Positions 9,555 through 59,947 of a stretch of DNA of 64,000 bases are shown here, piece by piece. The position numbers and the translations under genes were made by a program. The notes under the pieces are model-generated. The model saw only the letters and a program-made list of their open reading frames with translations. It did no database searches and had not been told where the DNA came from. Position 1 is the first letter of the stretch; each line of letters begins with the position of its first letter. Source of the stretch: Synechococcus sp. PCC 7502 (GTDB lineage: Bacteria > Cyanobacteriota > Cyanobacteriia > Pseudanabaenales > Pseudanabaenaceae); the NCBI RefSeq assembly GCF_000317085.1, contig NC_019702.1:464394-528393 (forward strand), written 5' to 3'.

Positions 9555-11087
9555 TTAAGCCTCAGCTCTAACACGAGTAGATTTGTCTCCAACTTTTTGG
9601 AAGGCACCCCATTCTACTTGCTCTTCATCAAGCTCTGGGTCAATACCTGCAAATACATCACGGAACAGAGTTCTAGAACCATGCCAAATATGACCAAAGA
9701 AGAAGAACAGAGCAAACACTGCATGGGCAAAGGTAAACCAACCCCTAGGGCTAGTGCGGAATACCCCATCCGAACTGAACTTATCTACATCAAAGTTAAA
9801 GGTTTCGCCTAGTTGTGCTTGACGAGCGATTTTCTTAACAGTAGGAGCATCAGTAAAAGTTTTACCGTTTAGCTCTCCTCCATATAGGGTTACAGAAATA
9901 CCCGCTTGCTCAAAACTATATTTAGATTCAGCTCTCCGGAAAGGAATATCAGCTTTAACTATCCCATCTTTATCCTGTAAAACCACAGGGAAGGTTTCAA
10001 AGAAGTTAGGTAAACGTCTTACAGTTAATTCACTACCATCTTTATCTTTAAATACTGGATGTCCAGCCCAAGCTTGAGCTACACCATCACCACTGTTCAT
10101 GGCACCAACACGGAATAATCCACCCTTAGCTGGGCTATTACCTACATAGTCGTAGAATGCTAGTTTATCGGGAATAGATGACCAAGCTTCGGATAGGGTT
10201 GCTCCCGATCTTAATTCTGCTTGAACACGGCGATCAATTTCCTGTTGGAAGTAGCTATTATCCCACTGATAGCGAGTAGGTCCAAACAATTCAATCGGCG
10301 TAGTTGCTGCACCGTACCACATAGTTCCCGCTACAACAAAGGCTGCGAAAAATACCGCTGCAATACTACTAGAAAGAACAGTTTCAATATTTCCCATTCT
10401 GAGAGCCTTGTATAAACGCTCAGGTGGACGTACAGTCAGATGAAATAGCCCCGCCAAAATGCCAACGATACCTGCGGCAATATGGTGAGCCACAACCCCT
10501 CCTGGATTAAAAGGATTAAATCCGTTAGGTCCCCATTCAGGAGCCACAGGTTGAACATGTCCAGTCAGTCCGTAGGGATCGGACACCCACATTCCAGGTC
10601 CAAATAAACCAGTTAAGTGGAATGCGCCAAAGCCAAAACAGAGGATGCCAGATAAAAATAAGTGAATTCCGAACATTTTGGGCAAGTCTAGGGCTGGCTC
10701 ACCAGTGCGTGGGTCTCTAAAGAGTTCCAAATCCCAGTTAACCCAATGCCAACAGGCAGCCAAAAACAATAACCCTGAAAGGACAATGTGAGCTACAGCT
10801 GTACCTTCAAAAGTCCATAAACCTGTATATTTTGCTGCTTCACCAGTTACACTCCAACCACCCCAAGAATCAGTAATTCCTAGCCTCGCCATAAAAGGCA
10901 ATACGAACATACCCTGTCTCCACATGGGATTGAGAATAGGATCGCTAGGATCGAAAGTTGCTGTTTCATAGAGAGCCATTGAACCTGCCCATCCAGCGAC
11001 AAGGGCGGTGTGCATGAGGTGAGTAGCAATCAGTCTACCTGGATCATTCAGGAGAACTGTATGCACTCGATACCAAGGTAATCCCAT
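9555..11087 (-). CDS. psbB: Photosystem II chlorophyll-binding protein CP47
   Basis: The 510-residue product is the core antenna protein CP47, beginning [11 protein letters not shown]. Six transmembrane helices carry the chlorophyll-ligand histidines (for example H-L-M-H-T-A, H-W-V-N-W, H-H-I-A-A-G), with the large lumenal loop between helices 5 and 6 (roughly residues 257-450). It passes excitation energy to the D1/D2 reaction centre. Length is normal. On the coding strand AAAGGAAATTAGCAA precedes the ATG. The upstream 250 bases contain two palindromic sites listed separately. It forms an operon with psbT. Confidence 0.98.
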
Positions 11088-57302: not shown

Positions 57303-58364
57303 ATGACCATTGCAATCGGGCGATCGCAGCAAGCTGAAAGAGGATGGTTTGACATCCTTGACGACTGGCTAAAGCGTGATCGATTTGTATTTATCGGCTG
57401 GAGCGGTCTTTTGCTCTTCCCTACTGCATTTTTAGCGGTTGGTGGCTGGATGACTGGCACCACATTTGCTTCTTCTTGGTACACCCACGGATTGGCTTCT
57501 AGCTACCTTGAAGGTGCTAACTTTTTGACTGTTGCTGTGTCTTCTCCTGCTCTCAGCATGGGACACTCTCTCTTACTACTTTGGGGACCTGAGGCACAGG
57601 GTGACTTTACCAGATGGATTCAAATTGGTGGTCTATGGACATTTGTAGCACTACATGGTGCTTTTGGATTGATTGGCTTTATGCTCCGTCAATTTGAAAT
57701 TTCCCGTCTAGTTGGTATTCGTCCTTACAATGCGATCGCATTTTCTGGTCCAATCGCTGTATTCGTATCTGTATTTTTACTCTACCCCCTAGGACAATCT
57801 GGCTGGTTCTTTGGACCTAGCTTTGGTGTTGCTGGCATTTTCCGCTTTATCTTGTTCCTACAAGGCTTCCATAACTGGACACTTAACCCCTTCCACATGA
57901 TGGGTGTAGCTGGTATTCTCGGTGGAGCTTTACTCTGCGCTATTCATGGTGCAACCGTAGAAAACACCTTATACGATGATGGTGAAGGTTCTAATACTTT
58001 TGTAGCGTTCAATCCAACCCAAGCAGAAGAAACCTATTCCATGGTGACTGCTAACCGTTTCTGGAGCCAAATCTTCGGGATCGCTTTCTCTAACAAGCGT
58101 TGGTTACACTTCTTTATGCTTTTCGTACCTGTCACTGGATTATGGTTTAGTAGTGTTGGTATCGTTGGGTTAGCTTTGAACCTCCGTGCCTATGACTTTA
58201 TTTCCCAAGAAGTTAGAGCTGCAGAAGACCCAGAATTTGAAACCTTCTACACCAAGAATTTATTGTTAAATGAAGGTATTCGCGCATGGATGGCTCCTCA
58301 AGACCAACCTGCAGAAAAATTCATCTTCCCTGAGGAAGTTCTACCTCGCGGTAACGCACTATAA
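57303..58364 (+). CDS. psbD: Photosystem II D2 reaction centre protein
   Basis: A 353-residue D2 protein, opening M-T-I-A-I-G-R and ending E-V-L-P-R-G-N-A-L as in other cyanobacteria. Five transmembrane helices hold the chlorophyll and non-haem-iron histidines, for example H-M-M-G-V-A-G and [11 protein letters not shown]2 forms the reaction centre with D1 and binds QA. The C-terminal 50 bases, which usually overlap the psbC start, contain no psbC start here; psbC begins beyond the stop. Confidence 0.98.
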
Positions 58365-58381
58365 ATTCGTCTGAAAGGAAT

Positions 58382-58422
58382 AGGGTGTTGGCTTCTAAGT
58401 AAATTTTGGCAGCTAACACCTT
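58382..58422 (+). promoter_or_regulatory. Long hairpin between psbD and psbC
   Basis: AGGGTGTTGGCT (58382-58393) pairs with AGCTAACACCTT (58411-58422): 12 bp with two G-U pairs, around a 17-base loop. No T run follows, so it is not a standard terminator. It sits in the 116-base gap between psbD and the probable psbC start and may be a processing or stability element in the shared mRNA. Confidence 0.6.
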
Positions 58423-58480
58423 TACCCGTTATAACTGTAATATTAGAAATCTTAAGAAACCATACGGGAGAAACTACCTC

Positions 58481-59872
58481 GTGACTGCAACTATTAATTT
58501 CAATAATTCTCTAGGAGTAGGCGGACGTACCCAAGATACTACAGGCTTTGCTTGGTGGTCTGGGAATGCCCGTCTTATTAATTTGTCTGGAAAGCTTTTG
58601 GGTGCTCATGTTGCCCATGCTGGCTTAATTGTATTTTGGGCAGGTGCTATGTGCTTGTTCGAGGTCGCTCACTTTGTCCCTGAAAAGCCCATGTATGAGC
58701 AAGGGCTAATCCTATTACCTCATCTTGCCAGCCAAGGTTGGGGTGTTGGTGCTGGTGGTGAAGTAATTGATACCTTTCCATATTTTGTTGTCGCCGTACT
58801 TCACCTGATTTCATCGGCGGTTTTAGGTTTAGGTGGTATTTACCATGCTCTGCGTGGACCTGAGGTATTAGAGAACTACTCAGCTTTCTTTGGTTATGAC
58901 TGGAAAGACAAAAACAAAATGACCACCATTTTGGGTATTCACCTAATTTTGTTGGGACTCGGTGCTTTCTTATTGGTAATCAAAGCCATGTTCTTTGGTG
59001 GTCTTTATGATACTTGGGCACCTGGTGGTGGTGATGTTCGTGTTATTACTAACCCTACCGTTAATCCATTGGTGATTTTTGGCTATATCCTTAGCTCTCC
59101 CTTTGGTGGTTCAGGTAATATCATCGGTGTAAATAACCTTGAAGATGTGGTTGGTGGTCATATTTGGATTGGCATCATTTGCATCAGTGGTGGGATTTGG
59201 CATATTGTTACTAAGCCTTTTGGTTGGGCAAGGCGTGCGCTGGTTTGGTCTGGTGAAGCATACCTTTCCTATAGTTTAGGCGCGTTATCTTTGATGGCAT
59301 TTATTGCTACTTGCTATGTGTGGTTTAACAATACTGTTTACCCCAGTGAGTTCTATGGTCCCACTGGTCCTGAAGCTTCCCAAGCTCAAGCTTTGACCTT
59401 TATCATCCGTGACCAAAAATTGGGTGCAAATATCGGTACTTCCCAAGGTCCTACTGGTCTTGGTAAATATTTAATGAGATCGCCTTCTGGAGAAATTATC
59501 TTCGGTGGTGAAACCATGCGTTTCTGGGATGTGCGCGCTCCTTGGATTGAGCCTTTGCGTGGTCCTAGCGGCTTAGATATTGACAAGCTCAAGAATGACA
59601 TTCAACCTTGGCAAGCTCGTCGTGCGGCAGAATACATGACCCATGCGCCTTTGGGTTCAATCAACTCTGTCGGTGGAGTTATCACTGAAATCAATGCCGT
59701 TAACTTTGTATCACCTCGCTCTTGGTTATCAACTTCTCACTTTGTCTTATTCTTCTTCTTCTTAGTCGGACACCTCTGGCATGCTGGTCGTGCGCGTGCG
59801 GCTGTCGCTGGCTTTGAAAAAGGAATTTCCCGTGAGTCTGAGGCTGTGCTTTCGATGCCAGACCTTGATTAA
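58481..59872 (+). CDS. psbC: Photosystem II chlorophyll-binding protein CP43
   Basis: The 463-residue core antenna protein from GTG 58481; the conserved part starts [15 protein letters not shown]. Six helices carry chlorophyll histidines (G-A-H-V-A-H-A-G). The lumenal loop ligand region has G-G-E-T-M-R-F-W-D, where Glu and Arg near the manganese cluster lie. The frame extends to TTG 58406, but those 25 residues resemble no CP43 and overlap the hairpin. GGGAG at 58466-58470 precedes the GTG by 10 bases. Unlike the usual arrangement, it does not overlap psbD. Confidence 0.97.
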
Positions 59873-59916: not shown

Positions 59917-59947
59917 ATCCCTCGGTGATGAAACTGGGGGATTTTTT
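59917..59947 (+). terminator. Rho-independent terminator after psbC
   Basis: ATCCCTCGGT pairs with ACTGGGGGAT (10 bp, two G-U pairs) around a 6-base loop and is followed by six T's. It lies 45 bases after the psbC stop and is the clearest terminator in the window. Confidence 0.85.

Follow-up and report, generated by a model that had tools for sequence, protein, structure and literature searches.

Do the psbD and psbC genes of all cyanobacteria share the interlocked arrangement for which they are known, and if not, what takes its place? These genes encode D2 and CP43, and their overlap has been reported as conserved across cyanobacteria, with its evolution unexplained; its origin has been proposed to have disrupted ligands at the ancestral D2 C-terminus (PMC8047818). 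A further account places the overlap in most cyanobacteria and all plastids (PMC9325196), and since it says "most", exceptions are already known in general. Our literature search found no description of three things reported below, namely loss of the overlap throughout an order, the hairpin, and the relic psbD tail, and the overlap lengths in Table S6 of PMC8047818 may list exceptions.

Here we examine such an exception in Synechococcus sp. PCC 7502, a member of the Pseudanabaenaceae with a 3.58 Mb genome in three contigs. The window is a stretch of 64,000 nt (contig NC_019702.1, positions 464,394 to 528,393), and all coordinates count from its first base. The junction of the window was compared with those of other cyanobacteria, and the space between the genes was searched for structure, repeats, known RNA families, terminators and promoters.

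The psbD-psbC junction in the window

The two genes are separated by an intercistronic gap (Table 1). A TAA in the psbC frame within this gap makes a psbC start inside psbD impossible; the likely start is the GTG at 58481, and the only earlier ATG, GTG or TTG candidate listed for psbC is a TTG at 58406, inside a hairpin described below. This bears out the first-pass annotation, which had placed psbC, free of overlap, at a likely GTG 116 bases past the psbD stop. Neither hallmark of an overlapping junction is found: no psbC GTG lies within the psbD coding sequence, where GCG stands at 58348-58350 (cGCGGTAACGC, against cGTGGTAACGC at the point where other cyanobacteria start psbC), and the Shine-Dalgarno (SD) GAGG that other cyanobacteria embed in psbD, 10 nt before that GTG, reads GAAG (58335-58338). 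The GAG-10-GTG arrangement is instead present at 58468-58483. Both psbD and psbC are single-copy in the genome and belong to this non-overlapping pair; a search for psbD returned one gene, the remaining matches being 33% identical and read as psbA. The closest public relative found was the MAG PMM_0082, whose psbC is 99% identical. The operon likely ends at the terminator-like site downstream of psbC.

Table 1. Features of the psbD-psbC junction, in window coordinates
Feature	Position	Strand	Basis or remark
psbD (D2)	57303..58364	+	ORF and translation; TAA at 58362-58364
psbD 3' end, former psbC start zone	58335..58364	+	Glu GAA replaces GAG, Arg CGC replaces CGT
psbD-psbC intercistronic gap	58365..58480	+	116 nt; single copy in genome
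Hairpin	58382..58422	+	58382-58393 with 58411-58422 (12 bp); 58395-58399 with 58405-58409 (5 bp); loop 58400-58404
TAA in psbC frame, upstream of psbC	58400..58402	+	Rules out start inside psbD
psbC Shine-Dalgarno GGGAG	58466..58470	+	GAG at -13, as in overlapping genomes
psbC ribosome site GAGAAACTACCTCGTG	58468..58483	+	Likely relic of psbD 3' end (GAGGTnCTnCCnCGTG)
psbC (CP43), likely GTG start	58481..59872	+	ORF and start candidates, family search
Terminator-like hairpin with T run, 3' of psbC	59917..59942	+	Terminator scan

Two other matches in the window concern related sequences. The second and best-scoring match to the PSII antenna family, an open frame of 511 aa on the minus strand (9585-11087), is most likely psbB (CP47). 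Opposite psbC lies an Rfam match to IsrR, the antisense of isiA (190 bits; 58901-59087, minus strand). It recurs in psbC of every relative tried, including Nostoc, and for this reason is probably a cross-match through the homology of CP43 and IsiA and not an RNA antisense to psbC.

Distribution of the gap among cyanobacteria

The gap is a trait of the whole order Pseudanabaenales, and it also recurs in other lineages. Within the order it is present in 37 of the 37 genomes with a readable junction, with 83 to 268 nt between the psbD stop and the psbC GTG, and in-frame psbC stops occur shortly 5' of the GTG in many relatives. Outside the order nearly all sampled junctions overlap by one design, GAGGTnCTnCCnCGTGGnAACGC, in agreement with the initial assertion that psbC usually starts inside psbD in cyanobacteria. 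The overlap extends to a Gloeobacter-like family (f47, which has a single psbD and whose rows form the deepest group in the psbC tree) and a Gloeomargarita-like one (f18), labels that are approximate and have tree position among their bases. Because these two and almost all other genomes overlap, the ancestral state, as read from this distribution, is the overlap.

Gaps outside Pseudanabaenales were found in f26 (one member of which we take to be Thermostichus JA-2-3B'a), in f53, in parts of f2 and f11, and in Chamaesiphon polymorphus. On a psbC protein tree, which leaves the gapped f2 row outside, overlap and gap interchange at least four times among its rows. This disfavours one common origin of all gaps, although a single gapped clade is not formally rejected (AU p 0.09); nor is a single origin for Pseudanabaenales, f26 and f53 (AU p 0.59).

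The copy number of psbD was surveyed as well. One psbD per genome was counted in 38 of 38 Pseudanabaenales; the other complete genomes sampled mostly have two, apart from the small picocyanobacterial ones. The single psbD is not a general cause of the gap, since two copies persist in gapped lineages outside the order, and the Gloeobacter-like and Gloeomargarita-like genomes have one psbD yet overlap. Within the order, it suggests a possible reason for expressing D2 apart from CP43.

Decay of the embedded start and origin of the new one

The 3' end of psbD differs in its codons between the two types of junction. In the overlapping type (95 junctions), GAG encodes the last Glu in 94 cases and CGT the Arg in all 95, as the embedded SD and GTG require, while 49 gapped junctions have GAA in 46 and CGC in 40 cases (some rows in these counts being the same or near-identical genomes). 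Embedded SD and GTG occur together in 94 of the 95 overlapping junctions and in none of the 49 gapped ones, and psbD copies with no psbC downstream show mixed codon usage at these positions. The D2 C-terminal end, meanwhile, is unchanged in every gapped Pseudanabaenales genome; taken with the codon decay, this implies that the nucleotide constraint went with the overlap and the protein constraint was kept.

The ribosome site that psbC uses in gapped genomes, GAG-10 nt-GTG, is probably itself a relic of a psbD tail, as several sequence comparisons indicate. In the window the site matches the psbD tail at 5 of 7 positions, against a window null mean of 2.1, and in the leaders of gapped genomes GAG stands at exactly -13 in all but genus g6, which is the spacing inside psbD of overlapping genomes. 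Across 11 groups the ten bases between GAG and GTG resemble the psbD tail above chance (p about 1e-4, with the window's SD-like sites as the comparison), in a test that counts lineages as independent, the groups being partly dependent; genus g7 has no such resemblance (1/7). In f11 (L147, L165, L166) and in Chamaesiphon (L113) a second psbD tail, intact or nearly so (e.g. GGAGGTTCTACCGCGTGGTAACGCTCTCTAA), precedes psbC and stands behind a hairpin and a complete psbD. It is apparently what the rearrangement that ended the overlap left behind. The arrival of a psbD copy upstream, with the old tail kept as the psbC ribosome site, can thus be read almost directly from f11 and Chamaesiphon, and for Pseudanabaenales we infer it.

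These observations bear on the further proposal of the first-pass annotation, a change from translational coupling to separate initiation. The latter half holds, in that the overlap is lost and psbC must initiate in the gap, but the proposed loss of a prior coupling is supported only in part. The RNA processing that the annotation also raised may occur. In tobacco, psbC translation was found in vivo to be uncoupled or only marginally coupled (PMC8133689); because coupling is disputed in overlapping genomes, and because the SD-10 nt-GTG unit is kept in the gap, speaking of a change from coupling is too strong. Initiation of psbC may be less changed than the gene architecture suggests.

In some Pseudanabaena species (L032 and several other loci), a TCTCC directly after the psbD stop could pair with the psbC SD across the whole gap. 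Masking of the SD by the start of the gap, by which coupling would be kept across it, is suggestive in some Pseudanabaena, but the window's sister genome and most genera lack it. The fold of the window's gap includes a 5-bp CCCGU/ACGGG pairing, which is impossible in the sister genome (G006).

A hairpin in the gap

The gap holds a strong hairpin at exactly the position, and with the 12-bp stem and lack of a T run, that had been noticed at first reading. Its 12-bp and 5-bp stems are separated by a 1x1 mismatch and capped by a 5-nt loop. A local fold of 53 nt has a minimum free energy of -23.3 kcal/mol, compared with -10.8 +/- 2.6 for dinucleotide shuffles (z -4.85; 0/200), and a scan of the whole gap gives p = 0.008; this local fold is the relevant significance test, a fold of 151 nt diluting the signal to z -1.0. 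No Rfam covariance model matched the gap, either in the window or in relatives.

The main alternative to the explanation that we prefer, set out below, is that the hairpin is a partial terminator (attenuator), with psbC expressed by readthrough, from a promoter of its own located in the gap's distal half, or both. Such a role would fit Chamaesiphon, whose gap hairpin has the canonical form of a terminator, TTTTTT included, and the Pseudanabaena-type genomes, where the arms of the first hairpin have A/T runs; a promoter would fit the AT-rich TAATAT/TAAAAT-like stretches that several genera have upstream of the psbC ribosome site. In the window, however, no U run directly follows the stem, the 3' flank being TTTACCCG, and plus-strand terminator scans, which do mark a good terminator-like site after psbC, made no call in the gap of the window or in that of Pseudanabaena L033. 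A sigma-70 promoter scan of the gap likewise made no call, and a literature search for psbC transcription starts in Pseudanabaena found none. We regard this alternative as somewhat unlikely.

Conservation was assessed across the order, and a strong hairpin was found in the gap of every Pseudanabaenales genus tested, its sequence varying between genera with the pairing kept. A hairpin stronger than shuffles is present in every gapped lineage tested (p 0.002-0.03). In an alignment of four genera built only from sequence, 88.4% of cells were paired and 9 of 14 pairs had changes on both sides (20 cells), and none of 500 shuffles did as well; with the partner slid by 1-3 columns, 22-53% of cells paired, in a comparison that favours the original structures, these having been read from the same alignments. 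The first hairpin of Pseudanabaena-type genomes is paired in 95% of cells over 16 sequences, with 12 of 15 pairs doubly changed. The two covariation sets are small (8 and 16 sequences), and both display what is expected of a conserved structured RNA, namely pairing kept by two-sided changes. A survey of relatives together with stem covariation had been set beforehand as the test of the initial reading, and both parts came out in its favour. What these alignments show to be conserved is base pairing rather than sequence, and the hairpin very likely has a function in D2/CP43 production.

The same data make it very improbable that gap and hairpin are a neutral or insertional remnant, such as a MITE- or REP-like palindrome with no function. 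The gaps of f11 do hold CCAAAATCCAAAATC repeats of insertional look, but the gap is single-copy in the tested Pseudanabaena genomes as well as in that of the window, where the sole match longer than 30 nt is the gap itself and a REP/MITE-like repeat was rejected, and pairing kept through double changes across the order largely refutes such an origin.

An extended element in Pseudanabaena

About 25 Pseudanabaena genomes have a structured element of some 150 nt directly 5' of psbC (L033:1347-1500 and equivalents), with the motifs TTAGCTATCAG...CTGATAGCT and an inner GATTATGATGATTCTCATC. Over 21 distinct Pseudanabaena-type sequences it is highly conserved, with 98.5% of cells paired; it is single-copy in the Pseudanabaena genomes tested, and no Rfam family matched it. 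These properties make it a candidate new leader RNA. They would also agree with an explanation in which the gap is mainly a 5' leader of psbC, most developed in Pseudanabaena, whose structure regulates psbC translation by binding an accessory protein or small RNA. Covariation of the element within Pseudanabaena is weak, however, with 2 pairs doubly changed, the gap of the window lacks the extended element altogether, and the SD masking described above is not conserved, so that this account of the gap seems to us distinctly unlikely.

Discussion

The explanation that we tentatively favour, at a little short of an even chance, is that the overlap was lost and that the gap hairpin protects or processes the 3' end of the psbD mRNA, D2 and CP43 being expressed separately. 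Such a role is preferred because the stem is conserved, has no U tract, and lies directly after the first stop codon and within one operon. A psbD copy, together with the flank at its 3' end, would have landed upstream, the overlap would have been lost, and the old psbD tail would have been left as the psbC ribosome site. The hairpin would act in the mRNA, protecting or defining the 3' end of the psbD message, either by stopping 3'-5' exonucleases or by serving as a processing site. Transcription would still continue through it into psbC, which would be translated from its own relic SD and GTG. The output of D2 and CP43 could then be adjusted separately, which may matter with a single psbD. 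The origin by psbD rearrangement, the protection or processing of mRNA, and the separate dosage are all steps that we infer, and a partial terminator would likewise leave a hairpin 3' of psbD. A bolder proposal, which we consider unlikely, is that the Pseudanabaenales spacer is a dedicated and previously undescribed PSII regulatory RNA. It would have taken the place of the overlap once a second psbD copy had been used to rebuild the operon, and would set the D2:CP43 ratio with a single psbD, the 150-nt Pseudanabaena form being a new structured leader RNA.

Loss of the overlap with an unchanged D2 end amounts to a natural experiment, separating what the embedded start holds in the psbD codons (GAG, CGT) from what the protein holds, and the overlap-less lineages offer another on whether matched synthesis of D2 and CP43 depends on the overlap. 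A relic of the event that broke it persists in two lineages, and the hairpin provides a concrete, testable element.

Comparison with known systems

The window shares with the overlapping psbD-psbC operon of cyanobacteria and plastids, in which the psbC GUG lies inside psbD (PMC8047818, PMC8133689), the same genes in the same order and strand, the GTG start, the GAG-10 nt-GTG site and the D2 C-terminus. It differs in having the psbC start and SD outside psbD, a 116-nt untranslated gap with a conserved hairpin, and the single psbD of its order. The lack of overlap as such is shared with known psbD/psbC genes that do not overlap, whereas here the sole psbD and sole psbC are affected and the hairpin is conserved over the order. 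Like a rho-independent terminator, the hairpin has a stable GC-containing stem lying immediately past a stop codon; unlike one, it has no U tract, and the next gene of the pathway comes directly after it. Intercistronic stem-loops in bacterial operons protect mRNA segments and allow unequal expression. With these stabilising structures the hairpin has in common a stem-loop between co-directional genes, no U tract and conserved pairing; unlike them it is known from sequence alone, is not a REP element, and is tied to the loss of a gene overlap.
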